DNA of 64,000 nt, taken from NCBI GenBank assembly GCA_903918375.1, contig CAIXED010000008.1, positions 186,001 to 250,000 on the forward strand, in the 5' to 3' direction. Positions 2 through 37,596 of this stretch are shown here, in pieces. The stretch is from an uncultured Pseudomonadota bacterium. Lineage in GTDB: Bacteria; Pseudomonadota; Gammaproteobacteria; Methylococcales; Methylomonadaceae. The notes under the pieces are model-generated. The model was not told the origin of the DNA, made no database searches, and saw only the letters and a program-made list of their open reading frames with translations. A program made the position numbers and the translations under genes. Numbering within the stretch: position 1 is the stretch's first letter; every line of letters starts with the position of its first letter.

Positions 2-1129
2 TTTACCCTTTACCATAATGGTGGTGATGGCAATTGGTTACAACAAAATACCTATTGGACTGGGTGGAGTGGTCAGCCATTTATGTCGGCACCTAATTCA
101 AGTTCTGACATGAAATCGCAATACAGCATGGATGGTTTTCGCTGGAAAGAGCAGTTTTCTCCATGGAAAGGCGGGACAGTGTTAGCCGGTATTGATAACG
201 AATGGCAAAACGGTCAAGTTGATAATTACGGCGCAGAATCAAGCAGCAGTGTTTATCATATTGTGACACCGACTTTTAGACTCAGCACGCCTTATGTTGC
301 ACTGAATCAAGACATTGCCCTAAATAGCGAATGGACCTTAGTGCCTTCGGTGGGTGTGCGTTATTACGACCATAGCCACTATCAATCGAAAGTATCGCCT
401 CATGCCGGTTTATCATTGGTATCACAAGACTTAACCCTGTTTGGTAATGTTTCAAATGGCGTTAACTATCCAGGTATTGATGGCGCTGCTAATGCTGGTG
501 CGCTGTCTTATGTGCCACATGGTTTTTTACCTACCGATTTCTCTGCTAATGGCTGGCAGAATATGTCACCTGAAAATGTCGATCATGCCGAAGTTGGTTT
601 AAAAGCATCGCCATTTGAGAGTACCAAAATTGATTTGAGTTTCTTTATCGATAACGTCAAAAATCGCTATGTATTTGATTTGATGTCTGGTAACTATACC
701 AATTATGGCAGCTACTGGATGCGTGGTTTTGAAGCCTCGGTTAAACAAGATTTGATTGCCGATTGGGCAATGTTTGCCAGCTTAACCATGCTTAACCCTA
801 GCATCGATAATTTACCGTACACACCTGCTCAAGCAGTGACTGCTGGTATCAACGGCCCGATTGGCCCGCTACGCTTCTCGTTTGATATGCAATATCAATC
901 TCGTGTTTGGGCGCTTAATCGTAGCCGAAATGTGGGTGCAAGCAATACCGATCAAGTCGAAGCCTTCACCGTGGCAAACACCCGTCTAGCTTACCCAATG
1001 CCGCAACTCGGTAAAAAAGGTGAGGTATTCGTTGGCGTAGAAAACTTATTCGACAAACGCTACCAATATCGCCCGGGTTATGAAATGCCAGGCATTTGGG
1101 GCCAAGTTGGTATCGCCGCGAGTTTCTAA
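2..1129 (+). CDS. TonB-dependent receptor, C-terminal part (5' truncated by window edge)
   Basis: The frame is open from the first bases of the window, so the gene starts upstream and only about 375 residues of the outer-membrane beta-barrel are visible. The tail carries the usual TonB-receptor ending: a 'VGVENLFDKRY' block followed by a last strand ending in Phe (GIAASF), the signal used for outer-membrane insertion. Such receptors import metal chelates, vitamins or other scarce ligands using TonB energy. The stop codon overlaps the start of the downstream amidohydrolase (TAATG), so the two are translationally coupled and probably handle the same ligand. The plug domain and any TonB box are outside the window, so the substrate cannot be judged. 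Confidence 0.88.
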   Translation, partial: FTLYHNGGDGNWLQQNTYWTGWSGQPFMSAPNSSSDMKSQYSMDGFRWKEQFSPWKGGTVLAGIDNEWQNGQVDNYGAESSSSVYHIVTPTFRLSTPYVALNQDIALNSEWTLVPSVGVRYYDHSHYQSKVSPHAGLSLVSQDLTLFGNVSNGVNYPGIDGAANAGALSYVPHGFLPTDFSANGWQNMSPENVDHAEVGLKASPFESTKIDLSFFIDNVKNRYVFDLMSGNYTNYGSYWMRGFEASVKQDLIADWAMFASLTMLNPSIDNLPYTPAQAVTAGINGPIGPLRFSFDMQYQSRVWALNRSRNVGASNTDQVEAFTVANTRLAYPMPQLGKKGEVFVGVENLFDKRYQYRPGYEMPGIWGQVGIAASF

Positions 1130-2349
1130 TGCAAAACCGTCGAATTAAGCTTGCTTTAATCGCTGCCAGCCTTTGGGCTGGTGGCGTTGTTGCTGCCGAC
1201 AAAACGCCCGCTGTGCTGTTAAAAGCGCAGCGGGTTTTTGACGGTGTTGAATTACATCAGGCTGCCGCTGTTTTAGTCGTCGACGGCAAAATCAAAGCGA
1301 TTGGCGATGCCAGCCAGCTTAAGGCCAAAGCCGCGCAAACCATTGATTTAGGTGATGCCACGCTGTTGCCGGGATTGATCGAGTTGCACGGCCATGTCGC
1401 CTTTCAGCATGTGCCGCAAAACACTGTGTTAGCGCATGGGATTACCACGGTGCGCGATGTTGGTGGGCCATTATTGCCAACGGCTGGCGGCAATGGTCAA
1501 TTACGTTTACTAACCGCTGGGCCGATTATCACTGTGGCTAATGGTTATCCGTTGCCGATTTTTGGCCATGGTCACGCTGACGGCCATCAAGCTCATCAGC
1601 ATGGCCATCAAAATCACAACCCGATTGCGATAACCGTTGCCAGCGAACAGCAAGCCAGACAAACGGTTAAAGACTTAATTGCTGGCGGTGCGGCGGTGAT
1701 TAAAATTGCCTTAGAACCGGGTGGGGAAGTGGGGGCGCCGTGGAGTCAACATGCTAGTGAAACGCCAACCCCTTGGCCGATGTTGAGTGTTGATTTAGTC
1801 AAAGCCATTAGCGACGAAGCCCATCAACACGGCAAGCTGGTTAGCGCGCATTTGTCAGAAGATATTGGCGTATCGATTGCCTTGGCAGGCGGGGTTGATG
1901 AATGGGCGCATATGCCGTGTTTAGCGATTTCCGATCATTTGTTGCAACAAGCTGTCCAGCAAAAGGTCAAAGTGGTTGCGACTTTAGATACGCTATCGCA
2001 TTGCTCAGGTATTTTTACCAACACCCAAAAGCTGGCGGCTTTAGGTGCGGAAATACTCTATGGCGCAGAATTGGCTCATGCTGATATTCCTTGGGGGATT
2101 GATGCTCACGAGTTGCAATTAATGATGCATTTAACCGGAAAAACCGCTGTAGAAACCTTACAAACCGCAACTTCTAAAGCAGGGCAACAGTTAGGTTTAG
2201 CACCGCTGGGCACAATAACTGCTGGTGCTCCCGCTGATTTAATCGCTGTCAAAGGCGATGCCTTACAAAACTTTAAACGCTTGGAATATCCTGATTGGGT
2301 GATGTCAGGCGGTAAAGTGGTGATTAATCAATTTTCATCCCACCGATAA
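1129..2349 (+). CDS. Exported metal-dependent amidohydrolase with histidine-rich loop
   Basis: A 406-residue amidohydrolase of the imidazolonepropionase-like superfamily (COG1228 type). The start at 1129 is chosen over an in-frame upstream codon because it overlaps the receptor stop and opens a clear signal peptide (residues 1-23, ending GVVAA). Metal-site landmarks are visible: H-G-H at 87-89 after the 'LLPGLIE' strand, a lysine in 'VIKIALEPGG', then His in 'VSAHLSED' and 'DEWAHM', and Asp in 'AELAHADIP'. Residues 147-163 form an insert with seven histidines, likely a metal-binding loop. Members of this family hydrolyse cyclic amides or peptides; the substrate here is unknown. Coupling with a TonB receptor suggests periplasmic processing of an imported compound. 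Confidence 0.85.
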   Translation: MQNRRIKLALIAASLWAGGVVAADKTPAVLLKAQRVFDGVELHQAAAVLVVDGKIKAIGDASQLKAKAAQTIDLGDATLLPGLIELHGHVAFQHVPQNTVLAHGITTVRDVGGPLLPTAGGNGQLRLLTAGPIITVANGYPLPIFGHGHADGHQAHQHGHQNHNPIAITVASEQQARQTVKDLIAGGAAVIKIALEPGGEVGAPWSQHASETPTPWPMLSVDLVKAISDEAHQHGKLVSAHLSEDIGVSIALAGGVDEWAHMPCLAISDHLLQQAVQQKVKVVATLDTLSHCSGIFTNTQKLAALGAEILYGAELAHADIPWGIDAHELQLMMHLTGKTAVETLQTATSKAGQQLGLAPLGTITAGAPADLIAVKGDALQNFKRLEYPDWVMSGGKVVINQFSSHR

Positions 2350-2708: not shown

Positions 2709-3377
2709 TTAATGCGCTTCACTAGCATCCAACAGCTTACTTAATGCCTGTAGATTGATATTGGCAATACAACCTCGGCTTAATGTCAGCCAACCATAAC
2801 TTTCAAAACGTTTAAGATGGCGAGAAACAACTTCACGAGCTGTGCCTAATTCCAGTGCCAGCTCGTTATGAGTTTTATGAATCGTCTGCTCGCCACTAGC
2901 TAACAAAGCCTTTGCCAATTTTTGATCCACCGAGCCAAAAGCTAGACTCTCCATGCGCTTAATCACATCAGCCAAGCGCTTAGAAAAATTACGGAATACA
3001 AATTCACGAAAAAAACTCGATTGCTCCAAGCAGCGATGGAAAATGTGTGCCGGAATCACAAATGCAGTCACCTCTGATTCAGTAAATCCCTCGGCAGGAT
3101 AATCATTGCCACCCAGTAAACAAGACGTGGTTAAAACACAGGATTCACCCGCTTCCACATGGTAAAGCACAATTTCACGGCCATCGGGTGACAGGATTTG
3201 TGCTTTGACACGTCCAGATAGCATCAATAGATAATTTTCACAGGCTTTGCCGGGATAAAACACATGCTGACCTAGCGGCATCGATACCAAGGTCGCGGAA
3301 GTCATGAACTGAGCAACTATCTTATCGGTGCTGGCAGCAAATTCCGGAAAATGCTGTTTCCACAGGGTTTGATTCAT
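2709..3377 (-). CDS. Crp/Fnr-family transcriptional regulator
   Basis: A 222-residue regulator with an N-terminal cyclic-nucleotide-binding beta-barrel (about residues 25-140, including 'GRVKAQILSPDGREIVLY') and a C-terminal winged helix-turn-helix (about 150-215, 'LALELGTAREVVSRHLKRF'). The N-terminal cysteine cluster needed for an FNR-type Fe-S centre is absent. Two cysteines occur in 'ESCVLTTSCLLGG', where the cyclic-nucleotide site would be, so a redox or metal signal is possible but unproven. It ends 3 bp from the small membrane-protein gene and is transcribed away from the second TonB receptor, making it a candidate regulator of this locus. Confidence 0.9.
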   Translation of the reverse strand: MNQTLWKQHFPEFAASTDKIVAQFMTSATLVSMPLGQHVFYPGKACENYLLMLSGRVKAQILSPDGREIVLYHVEAGESCVLTTSCLLGGNDYPAEGFTESEVTAFVIPAHIFHRCLEQSSFFREFVFRNFSKRLADVIKRMESLAFGSVDQKLAKALLASGEQTIHKTHNELALELGTAREVVSRHLKRFESYGWLTLSRGCIANINLQALSKLLDASEAH

Positions 3378-4084: not shown

Positions 4085-6202
4085 ATGATTAAAAAACCAT
4101 TATTGACGATTGGTGTATTAGCTCTGGCTATTTCACAAGCGGCTTATGCTAAAGATGATGATAAGAAAAAGTCTAAAGATGCAGAAACTTTGGATGAAGT
4201 GACGGTTAGTGCCGAAGGGGTAAGAGAAGAGTTATTACCTGAAAGCCCTAAAAATGCCTATCGTCTGCCGGTCAGTGCTGCAAATATTACTCAAACGATT
4301 ACCCGTGAACAAATTCAACAATTTCGGCCACGAGATGTTTTCCAATTATTGGATAACGCAACCGGTGTGATTGCTACCCAAGGCAGTCGTAAAGGATTTT
4401 CAGGTTTAACAATCCGAGGTGATTCAAATTTCCGCTATATCGTCGATGGCGCTTATCTCCAGCCGTCAATGGCATCCCGCATGATGGCATCTTTACCAGT
4501 GATGGCAATTGAAGAAGTCAAAATCGTTCGTGGCGGTAGTGCATTAACGATGGGACCCATGTCTGGTTCAGCCAGTCCCGGTGGCGCACCGGTCGATGGC
4601 TTCATTATTATTCGTACTCGCAAAACCACTAAAGATGGTGGTCAAGCCAGAGTCGCTGGTGAATCGTTTGATGGTGTCAAAGGTGACTTAATGTACGGTA
4701 AAACCTTTGGTGACCAAGAAGATAAAGGTTATGTTCAAGGTTTGATTTCACATCAACGTACCGATGGGCCAGGGCAACCATTAGACACCCCGCAGACAGG
4801 CGCAGGAACATCCAGTAGTTTTAATCGTAGCAGCATCAGAACAGATGGGATGTTCAAAGGCGGCTACGAAGGTAATGGCTTGATGGTTGATTTCATGGCA
4901 TTTAAAGACGACAGTTCCTTTGGTATTCCAAATGCCAATATTCATGGATCGGGCTCAGGTAACTGGAAGATGGCACCATCCCGAACCGAAATTTATGCCA
5001 TGAATGCTAGTTATACTTGGGATGACATTCATACCACATTGATTAATGCTTCTCATAGTACCAATAAGCAACATTTTATTTTCGGTGGCCCGATTAGTGC
5101 GGACAAAGAAAATCTCAATGAAGTGACCCATCTAAACGTTAGGCACAATATGGACATCGATAAAACCAGAGTCATGGTTGGTGGCGATTTTATGCACTGG
5201 GATGCACCTAACGGCCAGTTATATTATGAAGGTATTCAAAGAGAGGAAGACACGCTTGGATGGTTTGCTCAGGTTGAGCAGAAATTCTTTGATGATAAAT
5301 TGACACTAGATGGTAGTTACCGTGGTGATAAGGTCGATGTATTACATGGTTTAGATTATTACGCTGGCGGTAGTCAGCCACCGGGCGGGGTTAATTCCAG
5401 CTTGAAAACCACTAATAAAACCTTGCCTACAGCCACCTTTTTTAATGTTGGTGTAGGTTACGAGTTTATTAAAAATTGGAAATTGATTGGCCGTTATGGC
5501 GAAACCGATGTTTCCTCGTCTGGCATGAATGTGACAGCGGGTACCCAGCTTAAAGAACAGCATCAAATTAAGGCTGAGATTGGGATACAAGGTCAGGTTA
5601 CTTCTTGGTTTAATCCAGCAGTTAACTACTTTCATAGAGATGCACAAAATGAGCTAAATCTTTATGGTTATAGTTACGACAAAAAAGTGGGTGCTGTTAC
5701 TTCACATGTGACCTGTCAAGCGGCGAATGCGACGTCTAACGTGACAAACAATACCACTCCATTTGATCCATGCTATAGCCAATCTAACACGGTTAGAGAT
5801 GGTTTCGAAGTAACTAGCACTGGCCAGATTGGCAGTAATACCAACTATAACTTTGGTTGGACTAGCTATACCAAATTAAATAATGCTGCCTTAGGTACTA
5901 CAGCTCGTAATCAGGTGAATATGTCATTTGGGCATCGCTTTGATGTCTTGGGTGAAAATTTCAATCTGACAGGGGCTTTCAAATATCTGCCTAAATATAA
6001 AGGTACTCAAACTGACCCTGGGGTTTGGTCCGGCGGCTACACCCGCTACGATTTTGGTCTAGGTCATGATTTCAAATTAGCTCAATTTCCTTTAACGGCT
6101 ACTGTCTACGGTCAAAACCTGACCGACGAACGTTTTGAAACCAGCTCTGGTGTTCAAGACGTGGGTCGTGTTGTCGGTATTGAATTTGTTAGCAGTTTTT
6201 AG
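4085..6202 (+). CDS. TonB-dependent receptor (complete)
   Basis: A 705-residue outer-membrane receptor. It has a Sec signal peptide (residues 1-22, ending AAYA), a short charged linker, a TonB-box-like 'ETLDEVTVSA' segment, then a plug domain with 'RPRDVFQLLDNATGVIA', 'GFSGLTIRGDSN', 'IEEVKIVRGGSA', and a beta-barrel closing with 'VYGQNLTDERF' and a terminal Phe. The plug and barrel order and length fit siderophore/vitamin receptors of the FhuA-FepA kind. The next gene is a PepSY-type membrane protein 12 bp downstream, a pairing common in siderophore uptake loci. Expression may depend on the sigma-54-like promoter upstream. The ligand is not identifiable from sequence alone. Confidence 0.93.
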   Translation: MIKKPLLTIGVLALAISQAAYAKDDDKKKSKDAETLDEVTVSAEGVREELLPESPKNAYRLPVSAANITQTITREQIQQFRPRDVFQLLDNATGVIATQGSRKGFSGLTIRGDSNFRYIVDGAYLQPSMASRMMASLPVMAIEEVKIVRGGSALTMGPMSGSASPGGAPVDGFIIIRTRKTTKDGGQARVAGESFDGVKGDLMYGKTFGDQEDKGYVQGLISHQRTDGPGQPLDTPQTGAGTSSSFNRSSIRTDGMFKGGYEGNGLMVDFMAFKDDSSFGIPNANIHGSGSGNWKMAPSRTEIYAMNASYTWDDIHTTLINASHSTNKQHFIFGGPISADKENLNEVTHLNVRHNMDIDKTRVMVGGDFMHWDAPNGQLYYEGIQREEDTLGWFAQVEQKFFDDKLTLDGSYRGDKVDVLHGLDYYAGGSQPPGGVNSSLKTTNKTLPTATFFNVGVGYEFIKNWKLIGRYGETDVSSSGMNVTAGTQLKEQHQIKAEIGIQGQVTSWFNPAVNYFHRDAQNELNLYGYSYDKKVGAVTSHVTCQAANATSNVTNNTTPFDPCYSQSNTVRDGFEVTSTGQIGSNTNYNFGWTSYTKLNNAALGTTARNQVNMSFGHRFDVLGENFNLTGAFKYLPKYKGTQTDPGVWSGGYTRYDFGLGHDFKLAQFPLTATVYGQNLTDERFETSSGVQDVGRVVGIEFVSSF

Positions 6203-6214
6203 GAATAGTTAGTT

Positions 6215-7012
6215 ATGGCAAGCAAATCAAAATCATGGACTGCCCGCCGGATTCATCTTTGGATTGGGATTATTTTGGCTATCCCGATGGCACTGATGGC
6301 GATCACCGGTAGCTTAATTTCAATGCGTAGCATCGGCAATATTGATGTGCCTATGTCTTGGCTGGGCTCGGAATCGATTCCCGAACATTTACCAATCACC
6401 GCTTATTTGGAAACCAGCGACGGTGCGATTTGGTTGGGTAATGCTCAAGGTTTAACTCAAATCAAAGACCAACAAATCACACCTGTCGCCCATTTTGCTG
6501 GACAAGAAATTGTCGGTTTAGCGGCTTTACAGGGCAGTGCTTTGCCGATTGTCGCCACCAAAATGGCGGTTTGGTCACAAGCTGATGGGCAATGGAAGAG
6601 CTTGTTAAAAGGCCGTGTTCGTCAATTGTCTAGCTTAGCTAATGGTCAAGTATTGGCGATTGCTGGTGGACGAGGCGATATGGCCGACGGTAAACCAATG
6701 GTGAGTAGTGATGGTCAGCAATGGCAACCCTATCAAAACGCTTTGATGGCTAACAGCGCGATGCCGCCGTTAGACAATCCGCGGGTTGCATTGCATCAAT
6801 TTATGCGTGAAATCCATTCCGGTGCTTACTGGTTTGGTAAGGGCATAGGCGAAATGATCTGGAGCAATCTTCTCGGATTGGTTTTGGCGTCTTTATCGTT
6901 AACTGGCTTGTGGATGTGGCTGAAAGTCGAACGCCAAAAAGCCATTAAACGGGTCAAGTTCAATCAACACCCAGTTTTAAACACAGCTAATCAAATTAAC
7001 AGCGGAGATTAA
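6215..7012 (+). CDS. PepSY-associated transmembrane protein
   Basis: A 265-residue inner-membrane protein. It has an N-terminal helix (about residues 12-36, 'RRIHLWIGIILAIPMALMA') and a C-terminal helix (about 218-240, 'NLLGLVLASLSLTGLWMWL') framing a periplasmic domain of about 180 residues. The 'RRIHLWIG' start and the 'LTGLWMWL' end are hallmarks of the PepSY-TM group (COG3182 type), many of which are encoded beside siderophore receptors and reduce or help process imported ferric chelates. The middle domain contains 'DGAIWLGNAQGL' and 'SSDGQQWQ' repeats that resemble beta-propeller blades rather than a classic PepSY fold. Direct adjacency to the TonB receptor supports a shared uptake role. 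Confidence 0.8.
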   Translation: MASKSKSWTARRIHLWIGIILAIPMALMAITGSLISMRSIGNIDVPMSWLGSESIPEHLPITAYLETSDGAIWLGNAQGLTQIKDQQITPVAHFAGQEIVGLAALQGSALPIVATKMAVWSQADGQWKSLLKGRVRQLSSLANGQVLAIAGGRGDMADGKPMVSSDGQQWQPYQNALMANSAMPPLDNPRVALHQFMREIHSGAYWFGKGIGEMIWSNLLGLVLASLSLTGLWMWLKVERQKAIKRVKFNQHPVLNTANQINSGD

Positions 7013-7014
7013 TC

Positions 7015-7101
7015 ATGGGAATTTGGATAGCGCTAAGCGCAGTGTGTTTATTATCTTCTTTAGTGCTGACAATGATAGGTATATATCACATAAGTCGATA
7101 G
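7015..7101 (+). CDS. Possible 28-aa membrane peptide
   Basis: A 28-codon frame begins 2 bp after the PepSY-type gene, with AGCGGAG (7001-7007) at good ribosome-binding distance. It encodes an almost wholly hydrophobic helix (WIALSAVCLLSSLVLTMIGI) ending HISR. The position within the operon and the RBS support translation. The small size means the frame could still be chance. A short hairpin (GGAAA-CGG/CCG-TTTCC, 7116-7139) follows it, without a T-run. Confidence 0.42.
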   Translation: MGIWIALSAVCLLSSLVLTMIGIYHISR

Positions 7102-7180: not shown

Positions 7181-8512
7181 ATGACAAAAAATAACTTAGC
7201 GACTGCCGCTATTTTGCTATTGATGACTAGCAATATCACGGTTGCAGAAACCATGGCCGAAATGCCTGCTGAACATAAAATGCACATGGGTCAGCACAAA
7301 GGCCATGGTGATGGTGCTTATCATCACAGCTTTGCTGATGCTGAAAAATGGGCTAAACAATTTGATAACGCAGAACGCGATAGCTGGCAAAAACCCGAAC
7401 AGGTGTTAGACGCATTAAAGTTGTCCGCGAATACTACGGTCGCTGATATTGGCGCAGGTACTGGCTATTTTAGTAGCCGAATTGCCAAACGCGTACCGCA
7501 AGGCAAAGTCTTTGCCGTCGATGCCGAGCCTGACATGGTGCAATATCTGGATCAACGCGCTAAACGTGAAAAAATCGGCAATCTCAATCCAATACAAGGC
7601 AGCGCTACTAGCCCTAATTTGCCGGAGGCGGTCGATGTGATTTTGCTGGTTGATGCCTATCACCATATTGGCAATCGGGTCGAATATTTCAGCAAGCTAC
7701 GCGATTCGCTAAAAGCTGATGGTCGTTTGGCATTGATCGATTTCAATAAAGCAGGCCCTGGTACGCCACCGAAAGAGCACATGGTTTTAATTGAGCAGGT
7801 TAATCAAGAACTTGCTGCTGCCGGTTATAAGCCGGTAGAAAGTCATGAATTCTTGCCGAAACAATATTTTGTCGTCTTCCAAAAAACCACCGAAGCCCAA
7901 GCCGCTCATGGCGATATGCGTATGGCTGGTGAGCATAAAATGCGCTTTGCCGATGCTGAAAAATCAGCCAAACATTTCGATAGTGCCGATCGCGAAGCAT
8001 GGCAACAACCTGAAAAAGTATTGGATGAATTAGATTTAGCCAGCGATGCTTTGGTGGCCGATATTGGCGCTGGTACCGGTTATTTCAGTGCTCGAATTGC
8101 CAAACGAATACCAGAAGGCAAAGTATTTTCCGCCGATCTTGAGCCGGATATGGTGCGTTATTTAGGTGAACGGGCAAAACGCGAAAACTTAGCCAATATC
8201 CATCCGGTTCAAGCGAGTTTTGAGAGTCCTAATCTGCCGGAAGCCGTTGATGTGTTGTTATTCGTCAATGCTTATCACCTGATTGAGAACCGCGTTGATT
8301 ATTTCAGCAAGCTAAAGCAGTCATTAAAAGACGATGGTCGATTAGTGATCGTTGATTGGCGGATGAATTCCAGCGACACACCGCCGAAAATGCGCTTGGT
8401 CGCATTTGATACAGCGATGGCTGAGTTGAAACAAGCCGGCTATGACTTGCTGGAAACCAAAGAATTTTTGCCTAGACAGTACATTGCCATTCTGCAAAAA
8501 AGGGCTAAGTAA
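7181..8512 (+). CDS. Exported protein with two tandem SAM-dependent methyltransferase domains
   Basis: A 443-residue protein with an apparent signal peptide (residues 1-22, 'NLATAAILLLMTSNITVA') and a His/Met-rich mature N-terminus (MPAEHKMHMGQHKGHG). Two copies of a class I Rossmann methyltransferase domain follow, about residues 46-234 and 247-440. Both carry motif I 'VADIGAGTGYFS', the acidic 'EPDMV' loop and 'YFSKL..SLK.DGRL'. The repeats are preceded by related 'EHKM..FADAEK' segments, so the gene arose by internal duplication. Function is unknown; relatives are annotated only as methyltransferases. A periplasmic location is odd because SAM is cytoplasmic. It overlaps the downstream permease start (TAATG), so the two are co-translated. 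Confidence 0.85.
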   Translation: MTKNNLATAAILLLMTSNITVAETMAEMPAEHKMHMGQHKGHGDGAYHHSFADAEKWAKQFDNAERDSWQKPEQVLDALKLSANTTVADIGAGTGYFSSRIAKRVPQGKVFAVDAEPDMVQYLDQRAKREKIGNLNPIQGSATSPNLPEAVDVILLVDAYHHIGNRVEYFSKLRDSLKADGRLALIDFNKAGPGTPPKEHMVLIEQVNQELAAAGYKPVESHEFLPKQYFVVFQKTTEAQAAHGDMRMAGEHKMRFADAEKSAKHFDSADREAWQQPEKVLDELDLASDALVADIGAGTGYFSARIAKRIPEGKVFSADLEPDMVRYLGERAKRENLANIHPVQASFESPNLPEAVDVLLFVNAYHLIENRVDYFSKLKQSLKDDGRLVIVDWRMNSSDTPPKMRLVAFDTAMAELKQAGYDLLETKEFLPRQYIAILQKRAK

Positions 8513-9804
8513 TGGCAAAGCAAACCGCTAGTTTGCTGGATTATCGAGGCGCTATTGCCTTGGTGATTGCCAACACGATTGGCACCGGCGTCTTTACTAC
8601 TTCGGGCTTTGCATTGGCAGATTTAGGCTCACCTGCTTACGTGATGTTGGCGTGGCTGGTGGGCGGCGTTTATGCATTGTGCGGTGTGGCAATTTATGCC
8701 GACTTAGCGGCGCGATTTCCTCAATCCGGTGGTGAGTATGCGTTTCTGCGCGAAACACTGCACCCCGCGTTGGGGACGGTGGCGGGTTGGGTTTCATTAG
8801 TAGCCGGCTTTACCTCACCGATTGCCGCTGCAGCATTAGGCGCACAACTATATCTGGCGCGAGTCATGCCAATTGACAATGACCTGCCTTGGCTTGCGAC
8901 GGCGTTAATCGTGCTGTTGGGTTTATTACATGCTGCAGCGCCAAAGGTGGGGGTTAAATTCCAGAATTTGGCGGTATTAATCAAAGTCATCGCGATTATG
9001 GTGTTTATGGTTTTTGGTGTGCCGCACGTATCTGAAGCCATCGCAATCGCCCCCGCGATTGCATCAAGCAGCTTTTCCTTAATGGCGTTTGCGGGGTCTT
9101 TAGTGTGGATTTCGTTTGCCTATTCGGGCTGGAATGCGGCGGTCTATGTCACCAGTGAAGTCGATGGTGGCGGCGCTACGGTAAAACGGGCGCTTTACAC
9201 CGGCACTGGGCTAGTGATTGTGCTGTATTTGGGTGTCAGTGCGGTGATTTTGTATGGTGCACCGCAATTGGAAATTCGCGGTGTAGCAGAATCCGGTGCG
9301 GCGGCTGCTAGAGCTCTGGGTGGGATTGGTGCAGAACAGGCATTAAGCGGCTTAATTGCGCTGGCTTTGATGACCTCGGCATCATCGATGTTACTCAGTG
9401 GGCCGCGGGTTTATGCCCAAATGGCAAATGATGGTGCTTTACCGAAGTTTATGGGGCAATTGCACGGCGATCATCCGCGGATAGCGGTATTGGCACAAAC
9501 GCTACTCTGCGTGATGGTGGTTTGGAGTGCAGGGCTTCGGGAATTACTGGAGTTTGCGGGTGTGATGTTGAGTTTATCGGCTGGCGCGGTAGTGATTGGC
9601 TGGCTAAAACAAGAATTTAACAACCCAGCGCCATCATTAAGATATTTCCAATTGATTGCCGCTTTAACATTTTTAGCCGCGACGATTGGCATCGCTGTTG
9701 CCGCGTTAACAATGCGCCCCGGCTCTGCCTTAGCCGCTGTTGTGCTGATTGGTTTTGGACTGCTAGTGCATTATTGGCCTAGTCGTTCGGTAACAAAAAA
9801 ATAA
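8512..9804 (+). CDS. APC-superfamily amino acid/amine permease
   Basis: A 430-residue polytopic inner-membrane protein with about 12 predicted helices. The N-terminal helix has the APC-family signature 'ANTIGTGVFTTSGFAL', and later segments 'FPQSGGEYAFLRE' and 'SFAYSGWNAAVYVTSEV' are typical of amino acid-polyamine-organocation permeases. The start at 8512 overlaps the stop of the methyltransferase gene. It is the last gene of the uptake locus and could import the breakdown product released by the upstream enzymes. It is followed by a small GTCGAA/TTCGAC hairpin (9814-9829) with a weak T-run. Substrate specificity cannot be read from the sequence. Confidence 0.88.
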   Translation: MAKQTASLLDYRGAIALVIANTIGTGVFTTSGFALADLGSPAYVMLAWLVGGVYALCGVAIYADLAARFPQSGGEYAFLRETLHPALGTVAGWVSLVAGFTSPIAAAALGAQLYLARVMPIDNDLPWLATALIVLLGLLHAAAPKVGVKFQNLAVLIKVIAIMVFMVFGVPHVSEAIAIAPAIASSSFSLMAFAGSLVWISFAYSGWNAAVYVTSEVDGGGATVKRALYTGTGLVIVLYLGVSAVILYGAPQLEIRGVAESGAAAARALGGIGAEQALSGLIALALMTSASSMLLSGPRVYAQMANDGALPKFMGQLHGDHPRIAVLAQTLLCVMVVWSAGLRELLEFAGVMLSLSAGAVVIGWLKQEFNNPAPSLRYFQLIAALTFLAATIGIAVAALTMRPGSALAAVVLIGFGLLVHYWPSRSVTKK

Positions 9805-12346: not shown

Positions 12347-14458
12347 TTATATCTTATTTTTAGTCTTTAACAGGCTAAATAAATTAGAAAAATCATCAGT
12401 CCAAATCACGCTTTTATTGGGTATTTCACTGTTATCAAGCGCTTGGCTAATCACCGGATGCTGTAAAAAAGCCTGATTGCGAGTCAGATAAGCCCAATCG
12501 GTTTTATACAAACCAAAATCATCTTCTCGGTTCGGCGTGTGAACCACTTTAAATTGATAATTTCCGCGCTGCGCCAAACCATGCAATAAAGGCCGTAAAT
12601 CCAAATGGCGATTAGCGATGTGAATCACCAACACCCCATCTGGTTGTAAGTGGCGGAAATATTGCTGCATTGCTTCCACTGTCAACAAGTGCATCGGAAT
12701 CGCATCACCGCTAAAGGCGTCCAATACCAAAATATCAAATTGTTGATCGGCTTCACGATCTAAAGCTAAGCGAGCGTCGGTAATGACAATATCGTGTTGC
12801 GCTGGGGTGTTTTTAATAAAACTGAACTGATTTTTCGCCAATTCCACGACAGTCGGATTAATGTCATAAATCCGAAAATAATCATCCGCTTTGCCATAAG
12901 ACAGCAAAGTGCCAACCCCAAGCCCGACAATGCCAATTCGCCGATTTTGTTGTTTTGGGAAATGCTGTAAAGCCAAGCCGACGCCGGTTTCTGGACGGTA
13001 ATAGGCGGTGGCTTTTTGTTGTTTGTCAGCGGCTAAAAATTGAAAACCATGATCAATCGCACCGTGGCGTAACACCCGTCTGGCTTGTTCTGGTTGCTCA
13101 ATATCGCGATCAACCACCCGCAATACACCGTAGAAATTGCGGCTGACTAAGGATTGCGCGGCACTGGCTTCATAAGCATGTGTTATTAAATGTCCGCCTA
13201 ACACTAATAAAATCAATGAGCCAAGGCTGACGATCAACGGTTTGGGGTTCTCAATCACTAACACCGCGAATACCAACGCGAAACAAGCGAATAAACCAAT
13301 ATGAAATTCAAAATACAAAGGAAAAATCAGCGGTGATAACAAGGCAACAAATAAACCGCCAATTGCACCACCCACCGAAATCGCCAAGTAATAAGCGGTT
13401 AATTGGCTAGGTTGAGGCCGTAAGCGAAACAACTCACCGTGACAAATCATGCAGCAAAAAAATAGCCCCAAGCTGTAAATGCTAATTTGCCATTCCAGAC
13501 CGATTTTTGAGCCTTGATAAAGCGCGATGACCAAGCCCAAACCACCTAATAGCGAGGCGGGGATGAAAATCGAGCGTCGATACCATTTGAATTCGGCAAA
13601 ACACAGCACAAAGCTGATTAAATAAAACGCCAGCGGCAAAATCCACAAAAACGGCACACTGGCAACGTCTTGGCAAAGTTGATTGGTCACCGCCAACAGC
13701 ATGATGGAGGTAATCGCCGGCAAGCCCAGCCAAAATAGCCAGCGTGTAACGGGTGATAAATTTTCAACCAAGCGAACTTGATTATCTAAACTGCTTGGGG
13801 TTTCGCTGATTGCATTGTTTTGTGCCAAGTGTTTGAAATACAGCCCCAAGCCGCCACACAACAATACAAATAGCCCAAAGCCTAGCGACCAGCCCAAGGT
13901 TTGTTGGCCCAATTTAAAGTAAGGTTCAAACACAAACGGATAGCTAAGCAAGGCCAATAAAGAACCTAGATTAGATAAAGCATAGAGCGGATAGGGCGAG
14001 CGAGTCGGGCAGGCTCGGGCAAACCAAGCTTGTAATAAAGGACTGGTCGCCGCCAAGACGAAAAACGGCAATCCGACACTGCGTAATAACAAAACCAAAA
14101 TCGCCCAAGTCGGTTGATCGCCATCACTGGGTTTCCAGTCGGCAGAAGGTGTAATCGGTAAATAGCTTAATGCCAATAACAGCAAGCCAATATGTAGCAA
14201 GGATTGTTGTTTGGCTTTGAGGTGGCTCAAACTGAAATGGGCGTAGGCATAACCGCCTAGCAAGAGAATCTGGAAGAACAGCATACAAGTGGTCCACACC
14301 GCCGGACTACCGCCGAACCAAGGCAAAATAAACTTGCCGATTAACGGTTCAATTTGAAACAACAGATAAGCGCCCCAGAAAACGCAGATGGCAAATAGGC
14401 CGCGACAGATTAGGTCTTGGCTGGGTTTTTGCCCGCGCAAATTAAAATCGGTAGCCAC
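12347..14458 (-). CDS. Polytopic membrane protein fused to a spermidine-synthase-like domain
   Basis: A 703-residue protein. The first about 430 residues are hydrophobic, with a dozen or so helices ('LLFQIEPLIGKFILPWFGG', 'SNLGSLLALLSYPFVFEP'). The rest is a Rossmann methyltransferase fold of the spermidine synthase type: 'IGIVGLGVGTLLSYG' for the nucleotide loop, 'DINPTVVELAK', 'DARLALDRE', and 'ILVLDAFSGDAIPMHLLT'. Proteins of this architecture are common in bacteria and usually annotated 'fused MFS/spermidine synthase'; their substrate is not established. The gene is alone on the minus strand with its own terminator downstream. Confidence 0.85.
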   Translation of the reverse strand: MATDFNLRGQKPSQDLICRGLFAICVFWGAYLLFQIEPLIGKFILPWFGGSPAVWTTCMLFFQILLLGGYAYAHFSLSHLKAKQQSLLHIGLLLLALSYLPITPSADWKPSDGDQPTWAILVLLLRSVGLPFFVLAATSPLLQAWFARACPTRSPYPLYALSNLGSLLALLSYPFVFEPYFKLGQQTLGWSLGFGLFVLLCGGLGLYFKHLAQNNAISETPSSLDNQVRLVENLSPVTRWLFWLGLPAITSIMLLAVTNQLCQDVASVPFLWILPLAFYLISFVLCFAEFKWYRRSIFIPASLLGGLGLVIALYQGSKIGLEWQISIYSLGLFFCCMICHGELFRLRPQPSQLTAYYLAISVGGAIGGLFVALLSPLIFPLYFEFHIGLFACFALVFAVLVIENPKPLIVSLGSLILLVLGGHLITHAYEASAAQSLVSRNFYGVLRVVDRDIEQPEQARRVLRHGAIDHGFQFLAADKQQKATAYYRPETGVGLALQHFPKQQNRRIGIVGLGVGTLLSYGKADDYFRIYDINPTVVELAKNQFSFIKNTPAQHDIVITDARLALDREADQQFDILVLDAFSGDAIPMHLLTVEAMQQYFRHLQPDGVLVIHIANRHLDLRPLLHGLAQRGNYQFKVVHTPNREDDFGLYKTDWAYLTRNQAFLQHPVISQALDNSEIPNKSVIWTDDFSNLFSLLKTKNKI

Positions 14459-34702: not shown

Positions 34703-35572
34703 ATGAGTAGACTTGCGCTTGGTACAGTTCAATTCGGCTTGCCATATGGTATAGCCAACCAAACAGGACAAGTTTCACGATTGGAAGCCAAGGCTATATT
34801 GCAATCAGCTCTTATTAATGGTGTTGACACACTTGATACTGCAATTGCATATGGTGATAGTGAAGTTTGTTTGGGCGAATTAGGGGTGCAAGATTTTAAA
34901 ATAGTTACCAAATTACCTGAATTACCCGATGATTGTCTTAATGTTCATGCTTGGGTTCAACAACAGTTTAACTTGTCGTTATCTCGATTAGGTGTCAAAA
35001 AAGTCCACGGATTATTACTGCATCGGCCTCAGCAGTTACTAGGGGCAAACGGTGTTGCTATTTATAGAGCGTTACTAGCATTAAAAGATACTGGGCAAGT
35101 GAAGAAAATAGGTGTCTCAATATACTCACCTAACGAACTTGAATTACTAATGCCAAAATTTGATTTTGATTTAATACAAGCACCTTTTAATTTAATTGAT
35201 CAACGGCTAAAAAGTACTGGACTTATGCAGAGACTTAAAGACCAGGATATTGAAATTCATACTCGGTCAGCTTTTTTACAAGGGTTATTGTTGATGCCAA
35301 AAACTATGATACCGACAAAATTTTCAAAATGGGATTCATTATTGGATACTTGGCATCAATGGCTTGAATGTCATAACTTTACCGCAGTTCAAGCTTGTTT
35401 GGCTTTTCCATTAAGCTTTCCTGAAATTGATCGCGTTGTTATCGGTGCAGATAGCTTAAGCCAATTTGAGCAAGTCATCAGCGCGGTAAGTAATCTACCA
35501 AATATTAATATGCCGAATTTAAATTCAGACGATGAAATGTTGATTAATCCAGCAAATTGGAATCGATTATGA
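34703..35572 (+). CDS. Aldo/keto reductase-family protein
   Basis: A 289-residue TIM-barrel reductase. It has the family start 'MSRLALGTVQFGLPYGIANQ', 'DTLDTAIAYGDSE' (Asp and Tyr of the catalytic tetrad region) and 'HGLLLHRPQ' (His-like position). It likely uses NAD(P)H to reduce a carbonyl or acts as a sugar-modifying enzyme. AKR-family members next to SpsF-type nucleotidyltransferases and aminotransferases recur in nonulosonic acid/spore-coat-like sugar loci, and here the stop overlaps the start of such a fused gene (ATGA). The substrate is unknown. Confidence 0.82.
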   Translation: MSRLALGTVQFGLPYGIANQTGQVSRLEAKAILQSALINGVDTLDTAIAYGDSEVCLGELGVQDFKIVTKLPELPDDCLNVHAWVQQQFNLSLSRLGVKKVHGLLLHRPQQLLGANGVAIYRALLALKDTGQVKKIGVSIYSPNELELLMPKFDFDLIQAPFNLIDQRLKSTGLMQRLKDQDIEIHTRSAFLQGLLLMPKTMIPTKFSKWDSLLDTWHQWLECHNFTAVQACLAFPLSFPEIDRVVIGADSLSQFEQVISAVSNLPNINMPNLNSDDEMLINPANWNRL

Positions 35573-37596
35573 AATTCTTAGCCATTGTTCAGGCTCGCAT
35601 GGGCTCTACACGACTACCTAATAAAGTAATGAAGCTTATAGGTGGGGTTCCTATGATTGAAATTCTTCTTTCTAGGCTTTCAATGTCTGAAGAAATAGAT
35701 CAAATAATAGTCGCAACCTCGGTCGATGAGCGCAATATTCCATTGGTTAATCACGTTGAAAAGCTTGGGTACGCTTGTGAACAAGGCAGTGAGAACGATG
35801 TATTAGATCGATATATTAAGGCAGCAGCAAAGCATAGTGCAGACGTTATTATTCGCATAACAGGCGATTGTCCACTAGTTGATCCTTATTTAGTTGATCA
35901 GGTTATATGTCAGTTTAAAGCCACAAATGTAGATTACTTGAGTAATACCAATCCACCGACATATCCAGATGGATTAGATATTGAAGTTTTCACTTTCAAA
36001 GCGCTACAACAAGCTAATCAAGAAACATCAGATGTTTTCGATAGAGAGCATGTTACGCCTTATTTGCGTAAACCAAATAGATTTAAAACGGAAGCCTTGC
36101 AACACGGCGAAGATTTATCTGATCTGCGTTGGACGGTTGATGAGCCTTCTGATTTCGAGGTAATTGAAAAAGTTTTTCAATACTTCTATCCCAAAACAGA
36201 TTTTACTTGGCGTGAAGTATTAGATTTACAAAAACAGCAACCAGAACTGTTCAATATTAATCAACACCTAATTCGAAATGAAGGAGCAATGATGGGTACA
36301 GGTCAGAAACTGTGGAAACGTGCAAAGCAAGTGATCCCTGGTGGCAATATGCTTTTATCCAAGCGTGCCGAGATGTTTTTGCCTGATCAATGGCCCGCCT
36401 ATTTCAGTAAAGCTAAAGGATGTAAAGTTTGGGATTTGGATGGTAATGAATACATCGATATGTCCATTATGGGTATTGGTACTAACATCTTGGGTTATGG
36501 ACATCCAGAAGTCGATGCCGCAGTCCAACAAACAGTTATTACTGGCAATATGTCTACTTTTAATTGCCCAGAGGAAGTTTACTTAGCTGAAAAATTAATT
36601 GAGTTACATCCATGGGCGGATATGGCAAGGCTTGCTCGATCAGGTGGCGAAGCTAACGCTCTAGCAATTCGTATTGCTCGTGCTGCATCAGGTAAAGATA
36701 AAGTAGCTATTTGTGGTTACCATGGTTGGCATGATTGGTATCTATCCGCTAATTTGGGAGATGACGCTGGATTGGATGGGCATTTATTACCAGGACTACA
36801 ACCTAATGGCGTACCTCGCAATCTAAAAGGTACCGTGTTCCCTTTTAATTACAATAACTATGCTGAATTAGAAGCATTGGTTAATGCTGAGGACATTGGC
36901 GTAATCAAAATGGAAGTCGTTCGTAATATGGGGCCCGAAGATAACTTTTTACATAAAGTACGTAAACTTGCTACTGATCGCGGCATTGTGTTGATTTTTG
37001 ATGAATGCACCTCTGGTTTTCGTGAGACATTCGGTGGGTTACATAAAAAATATGGTGTTGAGCCAGACATGGCGATGTTTGGTAAAGCTTTAGGTAATGG
37101 CTACGGTATTACCGCAACCATAGGTAAGCGAGAAATAATGGAAGCTGCGCAAACGACCTTCATCAGTAGCACATTCTGGACTGAAAGAGTCGGACCAACT
37201 GCAGCGCTAAAAACCTTAGAGGTGATGGAGCGTGTCAAATCATGGGAAACCATTACCCAAACAGGATTAAATATCCGTCAAGGATGGCAAACGCTCGCTG
37301 ATAAACATGGATTAAGTATCAATCATTGGGGCTTGGCCGCACTTACAGGATTTACCATTCAAAGCGAAAATGCACTAGCGTATAAAACCCTGATTACTCA
37401 AGAGATGCTTGCTAAAGGATATTTGGCAGGAAATAGTGTTTATGTCTGTATTGACCATACACCAGATGTTTTAGTTGGCTTTTTTGAAGCGCTTGATCCT
37501 ATATTTGCACTTATTAAGCAATGTGAAGATGGGCGAGACGTTATGGGGTTGCTAAAAGGTCCTGTGTGTCATGGTGGTTTTAAAAGGCTAAATTAG
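35569..37596 (+). CDS. Fusion: SpsF-type nucleotidyltransferase + GSA-type class III aminotransferase
   Basis: A 675-residue fusion; the ATG at 35569 overlaps the AKR stop. Residues 1 to about 240 form a CTP-transferase (SpsF/PseF/NeuA family) domain with 'IVQARMGSTRLPNKVMK' and 'ITGDCPLVDPYLV'. Residues about 250-675 form a class III aminotransferase related to glutamate-1-semialdehyde aminomutase, with 'ARSGGEANALAIRIARAAS' and PLP lysine K506 ('MFGKALGNGYG'). The nucleotidyltransferase could activate pseudaminic acid with CTP, as PseF does; the aminotransferase may aminate another sugar or precursor. The two domains are normally separate proteins. It is followed 3 bp later by a membrane-protein gene. 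Confidence 0.85.
   Translation: MKFLAIVQARMGSTRLPNKVMKLIGGVPMIEILLSRLSMSEEIDQIIVATSVDERNIPLVNHVEKLGYACEQGSENDVLDRYIKAAAKHSADVIIRITGDCPLVDPYLVDQVICQFKATNVDYLSNTNPPTYPDGLDIEVFTFKALQQANQETSDVFDREHVTPYLRKPNRFKTEALQHGEDLSDLRWTVDEPSDFEVIEKVFQYFYPKTDFTWREVLDLQKQQPELFNINQHLIRNEGAMMGTGQKLWKRAKQVIPGGNMLLSKRAEMFLPDQWPAYFSKAKGCKVWDLDGNEYIDMSIMGIGTNILGYGHPEVDAAVQQTVITGNMSTFNCPEEVYLAEKLIELHPWADMARLARSGGEANALAIRIARAASGKDKVAICGYHGWHDWYLSANLGDDAGLDGHLLPGLQPNGVPRNLKGTVFPFNYNNYAELEALVNAEDIGVIKMEVVRNMGPEDNFLHKVRKLATDRGIVLIFDECTSGFRETFGGLHKKYGVEPDMAMFGKALGNGYGITATIGKREIMEAAQTTFISSTFWTERVGPTAALKTLEVMERVKSWETITQTGLNIRQGWQTLADKHGLSINHWGLAALTGFTIQSENALAYKTLITQEMLAKGYLAGNSVYVCIDHTPDVLVGFFEALDPIFALIKQCEDGRDVMGLLKGPVCHGGFKRLN

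Follow-up and report, generated by a model that had tools for sequence, protein, structure and literature searches.

Introduction

The described proteins closest to the genes analyzed here are class I SAM-dependent methyltransferases (SAM-MTs), protein-L-isoaspartate methyltransferases (PCMTs; PF01135), LAT/SLC7 transporters, and the SAM/SAH transporters of obligate intracellular bacteria. PCMTs take isoaspartyl protein as their substrate and serve protein repair. Transporters of the y+LAT2, Xc- light chain, and LAT2 type are exchangers, y+LAT trades a cationic amino acid for a neutral one, and in LAT-type transporters a GxG motif in transmembrane segment 1 (TM1) holds alpha-amino acids. The SAM/SAH transporters of obligate intracellular bacteria, Sam from Rickettsia and SAMHT from Chlamydia, are SAM importers of the DMT/EamA superfamily. 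In the titles and the opening parts of abstracts retrieved from the open-licence PMC literature, neither a periplasmic supply of SAM nor a pairing of an exported methyltransferase (MT) with a permease of the kind described below is mentioned.

In this work, a stretch of 64,000 nucleotides from an uncultured member of the Methylomonadaceae that is a near relative of the methanotroph Methylomonas (contig CAIXED010000008.1), called the window throughout, was analyzed for an MT gene and the permease gene that follows it. The window MT resembles class I SAM-MTs in its domain matches (Methyltransf_31, 25, and 11), its SAM loop, and its beta-2 acidic residue, whereas it differs from them in being apparently exported, in its tandem architecture, in an arginine (Arg66) ahead of motif I, and in a His/Met-rich linker. 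The exported PCMTs found here are like the window MT in that they are exported-looking SAM enzymes, followed by the permease in nine loci, but they constitute a separate MT family. The permease is related by sequence to LAT/SLC7 transporters along nearly its whole length and has the GxG motif of TM1 in common with them; in contrast to them it carries the signature Y[SA]G[WF]NA in TM6 and has an exported MT as genomic partner. With Sam and SAMHT it would share the cargo and the exchange mode proposed below, whereas it is an APC protein and would export SAM.

Results

A tandem methyltransferase with a predicted signal peptide

The window MT and its parts are as follows, with the basis of each assignment in brackets.

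7181–8512 (+): predicted exported tandem class I SAM-MT of 443 aa with an ATG start (full-length relatives with 95% identity at L002 and L003)
7181–7246 (+): predicted signal peptide, residues 1–22, ending in ITVA before ET (hydrophobicity, family-wide export, dN/dS)
7247–7330 (+): His/Met-rich linker, residues 23–50 (His and Met counts across family linkers)
7331–7888 (+): N-terminal MT domain, residues 51–236 (Pfam, motif conservation, dN/dS)
7943–8509 (+): C-terminal MT domain, residues 255–443 (Pfam, intact SAM motif, dN/dS)

The initial annotation of this gene, made from its sequence, had noted a signal-peptide-like N-terminus followed by two near-repeats of a class I MT fold, and both observations are borne out. 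By composition the N-terminus, MTKNNLATAAILLLMTSNITVA followed by ET, is a Sec signal with a positive n-region, a hydrophobic core, and an A-x-A-like end, and the 11-residue Kyte-Doolittle mean of the core is 2.33. The N- and C-terminal halves are 58% identical across 199 aligned positions (E 2e-87), and the Pfam families Methyltransf_31, 25, 12, and 11 each matched two stretches of the protein. The segment 'EHKM..FADAEK', said to precede each repeat, is present in the C half as EHKMRFADAEK; in the N half the words EHKM and FADAEK lie 16 residues apart with a His-rich insert between them, so that this part of the description holds for one half only. A His/Met-rich N-terminus had also been pointed out, and a His/Met-rich linker follows the signal peptide. 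In 8 family members chosen by eye, the window among them, His and Met make up 50 of 191 linker residues, against 21 of 704 in the 35 other members counted.

The tandem form is also present at L002 and L003 (95% identity) and is therefore not an artefact of the window assembly; among 47 family members it occurs only in these two and in the window. The solved MT structures nearest by sequence, 3dh0 and 3i9f, are named only as SAM-dependent or putative methyltransferases. Two AlphaFold models, built on three rows each, reached pLDDT values of 43 and 36 and were too poor for use.

Predicted export throughout the methyltransferase family

With profile A1, made from six MT domains, relatives at E ≤ 1e-30 turned up in 29 genomes of the window's class (369 searched) and in 5 of the phylum (398 searched), the window's own genome being counted in both, and 37 neighbourhoods of A1 relatives were examined. 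Matches to the window MT itself at E ≤ 1e-10 were confined to 3 of the 201 genomes of its taxonomic family, the window's included, and were absent from the 20 other genomes listed for the same genus. The gene set is patchy across genomes and plasmid-borne in one case, a single-domain relative being located on the Methylosinus plasmid pMSC49c. No described function was found for this family of exported MTs.

A crude, composition-based caller assigned an export signal to 44 of 47 family members, mostly of the cleavable type and in four cases of the lipoprotein type; this caller is permissive and was also positive for 139 of 432 control ORFs (32%). Two of the three uncalled members show a lipobox by eye and the third is masked. 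The large contrast between family members and controls indicates that, as read from predicted signals, export is an ancient, family-wide trait, and the window MT itself is very probably exported. The paradox of an exported SAM-MT, raised by the initial annotation, is thus real and extends to the family, whose members do not in general lack the N-terminal segment.

The paradox would vanish if the window MT were cytoplasmic, or remained anchored in the inner membrane with the domains facing the cytoplasm. Such a location is compatible with a signal judged by composition alone, using a caller that marks control ORFs as well, but it is hard to reconcile with signals in nearly all members of the family, four of them of the lipoprotein type. 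It also conflicts with the positive n-region, which by the general rule leaves the N-terminus in and places the following domains outside. We consider a cytoplasmic or inward-facing enzyme quite improbable, and a cytoplasmic protein with an anchor helix, as the initial annotation had offered, is unlikely because most signal calls are cleavable and four are of the lipoprotein type.

Conservation of the SAM site and origin of the duplication

The motif I glycines G91, G93, and G95 are kept in 46 of 46 aligned family domains, D89 (the Asp ahead of these glycines), D114 (the beta-2 Asp), and H161 (the Y-H motif histidine) in 45 of 46 each, and Y160 (the tyrosine of that motif) in 44 of 46. Both window domains retain every one of these residues, and thereby possess the glycine-rich motif I and the acidic residue closing beta-2 that characterize class I SAM-MTs; in the C domain the second His of YHH is replaced by Leu. 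Arg66, ahead of motif I, is present in all 46 family domains. When the window is compared with L003, the N and C domains have dN/dS values of 0.042 and 0.046, the permease has 0.07, and the signal peptide 0.20; in the comparison with L002 the signal peptide reaches 0.24 against about 0.04 in the domains. By these ratios both MT domains are under purifying selection. It is likely that the window protein is an active SAM enzyme, whose activity would be exerted in the periplasm. Re-adaptation of the domain to another ligand, which the initial annotation had considered, is not favored because SAM-binding residues are conserved, in 45–46 of 46 domains and in both window domains.

A variant of this idea is that the exported domains no longer methylate and have become periplasmic binders of SAH, nucleosides, or a metal chelate, which pass their cargo to the permease. 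A binding protein next to a permease is a familiar arrangement, duplicated domains and the Leu in the C domain would suit binding, and we know of no periplasmic SAM pool on which an enzyme could draw. Set against this, the domains have kept the SAM loop as well as the beta-2 Asp and Y-H motif, the other permease-linked MT family is a clear PCMT (Pfam E 1e-63), and APC exchangers need no binding protein. On balance we regard such a conversion as improbable and retain the reading of the window MT as an enzyme.

The two domains of the window protein are sisters in the MT tree (96/73, the SH-aLRT support being weak) and the single MT of genome G048 branches just outside, a placement by which the domain duplication probably arose inside the window lineage.

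The putative operon and its relatives

The genes around the window MT are the following.

2709–3377 (−): Crp/Fnr-type regulator, divergent from the operon (Pfam cNMP_binding and HTH_Crp_2)
4085–6202 (+): TonB-dependent receptor, first gene of the putative operon (Pfam Plug, E 2e-13)
6215–7012 (+): PepSY_TM protein of the same putative operon (Pfam, E 9e-9)
7015–7101 (+): putative small ORF of 28 aa, MGIWIALSAVCLLSSLVLTMIGIYHISR, membrane-like (read directly from the sequence)
8512–9804 (+): LAT-type (SLC7-like) APC permease (Pfam AA_permease_2, E 2e-43)

As had been described initially, the MT gene lies between a PepSY gene, whose product we take to be kin to siderophore-reductase-like proteins, and a permease gene, the ATG of which shares one base (8512) with the stop codon of the MT. 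The order TonB receptor, PepSY, MT, and permease, together with the Crp/Fnr gene, recurs at L003, and it is also kept in the available part of L002, which carries the label Methylomonas koyamae. TonB and PepSY_TM genes thus stand beside the MT in the window and at L003, partly at L002, and as remnants at L078 in genome G048. There, an ORF at L078:1189–1446 fuses the start of a TonB receptor to a PepSY-like end and adjoins an intact single MT, and 3' of this MT a permease fragment can be recognized by eye, as can another start that resembles a signal peptide. Judged in this way, the G048 locus is a decayed copy of the window operon.

On plasmid pMSC49c (L041) the MT gene is followed by an amino acid permease gene overlapping its stop codon, in a stretch that contains PepSY, an outer-membrane barrel, FeoB, and FeoC, and mbnF is located about 7 kb beyond the MT-permease stretch. 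Around the L090 and L138 pairs no metal-uptake genes were seen by eye, the stretch at L138 extending 1.5 kb to either side of the permease. The His/Met-rich linker and the TonB, PepSY, and Feo neighbours make a metal link plausible for part of the MT family. Fur-box matches at ≥13/19 in the window (25 listed) were not above simple shuffles (17–32), the intergenic stretch before the TonB gene contained no Fur-box match at ≥13/19 (best 12/19), and a promoter and terminator scan of the window returned fewer matches than shuffles.

Further genes of the window were noted in passing. At 83–2349 (+) the C-terminal part of an apparent TonB receptor precedes an amidohydrolase (Pfam) whose N-terminus is signal-like and which carries the His-rich insert HGHADGHQAHQHGHQNH, and the order of these genes is the same at L003. 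At 12347–14458 (−), 2.5 kb past the permease and on the opposite strand, a large membrane protein is encoded that has about 10 hydrophobic segments and no Pfam match at 0.001; its C-terminal part resembles a spermidine-synthase-like Rossmann domain. At 35557–37596 (+), near apparent surface-glycan genes, an apparent fusion of a nucleotidyltransferase (NeuA/KdsB-like) with a glutamate-1-semialdehyde-type aminotransferase was recognized by eye.

A rare LAT-type permease

The solved structures nearest to the permease are y+LAT2 (9ky5), the light chain of the cystine/glutamate transporter Xc- (7p9u), and LAT2 (7b00), with E values from 4e-37 to 7e-36, and the bacterial transporter 6f2g, presumably BasC, is found lower on the list. 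Similarity to SLC7 LATs over nearly the full length and the GxG of TM1 classify the protein as LAT-type. Both this GxG and the TM6 signature Y[SA]G[WF]NA are present in all 19 permeases compared. At E ≤ 1e-60 the permease was detected in 1 of 121 genomes of the window's taxonomic family, which was the window's own, and in 1 of 289 genomes of a second class (the class of G859, which we guess to be Alphaproteobacteria), namely G1025. Profile A2, made from four permeases that are all MT-linked, found it at E ≤ 1e-90 in five genomes (the window's own, G336, G343, G377, and G455) out of 303 searched in the window's class, and at E ≤ 1e-70 in 11 of 38 genomes of f2, the family of G336.

The permease is a recurrent partner of exported methyltransferases

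The new result of this work, which has no counterpart in the initial annotation, is that this permease subfamily is a recurrent partner of exported MTs. An exported SAM-dependent MT lies directly upstream of the permease in 16 of 19 loci, a proportion that may be flattered since A2 was built from MT-linked permeases and then used for searches, and that is inflated by near-copies (L002 and L003; five f2 genomes of one genus). Seven of these 16 pairs involve the window's MT family (the window, L002, L003, L041, L090, L138, and L139) and nine involve exported PCMTs (L098 and L130–L137), a signal-like hydrophobic segment being present in each of the nine. The distance between the two genes is short: in G336 the permease follows about 20 bp past the exported PCMT, and in G1025 a signal-bearing MT of the window's family is located 7 bp upstream of the permease. 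In family f2 all 11 permeases (E 1e-70) are paired, nine behind a PCMT and two (L138 and L139) behind an exported MT of the window's family, and within a single genus of f2, g698, both arrangements occur, the PCMT pair in one genome (L137) and the pair with the window-family MT in two.

In draws that were not chosen for MTs and from which the window's genome was excluded, an exported MT stood immediately upstream of the permease in 3 of 6 cases (G336, G1025, and the Methylosinus plasmid) and not in G343, G377, and G455, the cut-offs of the draws differing (E 1e-90, 1e-60, and 1e-15). The presence of an MT neighbour is not constant, since three of the 19 permeases (L096, L097, and L099) have no adjoining exported MT, and a search at E ≤ 1e-15, run without a positive control, found no member of the window MT family in G336 or in the three genomes that carry L096, L097, and L099. 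The closest MT-less permeases, L096:9070–10389 and L097:9187–10494, from two genomes of one genus, adjoin a TPR protein that looks exported and DUF1415, and thus show the permease subfamily in another genomic setting.

In the permease tree the nine permeases linked to PCMTs group in a single clade, and those linked to the window's MT family appear in three places; this tree is unrooted because a search of plasmids for a broad outgroup retrieved nothing beyond the Methylosinus record. In the MT tree, adjacency to the permease likewise appears in three places, L138 and L139 not having been sought by way of their MTs. The neighbourhood of the two genes might nevertheless be a coincidence, or result from shared mobility without a common function, considering that the gene set is patchy and once plasmid-borne, that three permeases have no such neighbour, and that the search profile was made from MT-linked permeases. 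This is contradicted by the adjacency, which recurs at three positions in the MT tree and extends to a second MT family, and by its low expectation: exported MT genes of both families were estimated at roughly 0.2–0.3 per genome, from which chance adjacency would occur about once in 10,000 per permease. Coincidence therefore appears very improbable, and functional coupling of exported MT and permease, as judged from gene order, highly likely.

Exported methyltransferases without the permease

The proposition that all MTs of the family use the permease was rejected, as the permease was found in 4 of the 44 MT loci first examined, several of which lie on short contigs while L078 holds a permease remnant only. 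Likewise rejected was the proposition that all exported PCMTs use it, because it was present in 1 of 30 PCMT loci, that of G336 itself. With the permease in so few loci, most exported MTs would either obtain SAM in another way or not be SAM enzymes. No shared partner of the other family MTs emerged, as no Pfam family occurred in more than 2 of 40 neighbour genes (40 of 107 genes, 25 of 66 families listed).

Among the 30 PCMT loci, 19 encode exported-looking PCMTs, and in 12 of these (L101, L103–L107, L112–L115, L117, and L120) the PCMT is followed on the same strand, at a distance of 0–101 bp, by a member of a homologous membrane protein family. These proteins have 5–7 hydrophobic segments by a crude count, the genes extending past the examined loci, and in 7 of 12 a spermine-synthase-like domain was detected by Pfam, one lying just below the curated cut-off. 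The position taken by the permease in family f2 is thus often occupied by this other membrane protein family. A membrane partner beside an exported MT is thus not unique to the permease, and the second membrane family is possibly another SAM-related membrane partner.

Discussion

We propose that the window MT would be a periplasmic, enzymatically competent tandem SAM-MT that works as a unit with the adjoining LAT-type permease. The permease would exchange cytoplasmic SAM, which is cationic, outward for periplasmic SAH, which is neutral, inward, and the exchange would both supply the exported enzyme with its cofactor and clear the inhibitory product SAH. What the two paired MT families have in common is SAM and SAH, and together with the LAT kinship of the permease and its GxG motif this would make SAM-out/SAH-in exchange the simplest common cause of the pairing. 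Both molecules bear an alpha-amino acid moiety and are thus compatible with the GxG of TM1. Drawn from neighbouring genes, the assignment of SAM and SAH as cargo is tentative, and we would place it somewhat below an even chance; the entire chain, in which methylation in the periplasm would be served by a dedicated cofactor exchanger, is to be taken with the same reserve. In the window lineage this unit would stand behind a TonB receptor gene and a PepSY_TM gene, with a methyl acceptor linked to the uptake or handling of metal chelates, as the position of the genes and the His/Met-rich segment suggest a substrate that is probably tied to a metal chelate.

The same metal context can be read differently. 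The permease might carry the methyl acceptor or the methylated product, for instance an amino-acid-like metal ligand, the enzyme modifying this cargo in transit and SAM arriving by another route. The TonB, PepSY, and Feo genes found near the MT in the window and near its relative on the Methylosinus plasmid agree with this, as does the His/Met-rich linker, and kinship to LATs suits an amino-acid-like cargo. Yet the same permease subfamily is found behind exported PCMTs, whose substrate is a protein and not a small molecule, and at the L090 and L138 pairs no metal-uptake genes were seen by eye in the stretches read. Transport of the acceptor or product is, in our estimation, unlikely, though the least so of the alternatives considered, and SAM/SAH exchange remains the reading that we prefer.

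In general terms, SAM-dependent methylation may take place in the periplasm of some bacteria, where a LAT-type permease might serve as a dedicated SAM/SAH exchanger for at least two families of exported MTs and where other exported MTs might use the partner with 5–7 transmembrane segments and a spermine-synthase-like domain in a similar way, a generalization that we advance with still more caution than the proposal for the window itself. The MT and the permease make up a two-gene unit that is open to laboratory testing. If the proposal is true, SAM chemistry would not be confined to the cytoplasm and the supply of SAM outside the inner membrane would have a concrete transporter gene, which would help to explain why apparently complete MTs of many proteobacteria, including some copies of PCMT, carry signal peptides.
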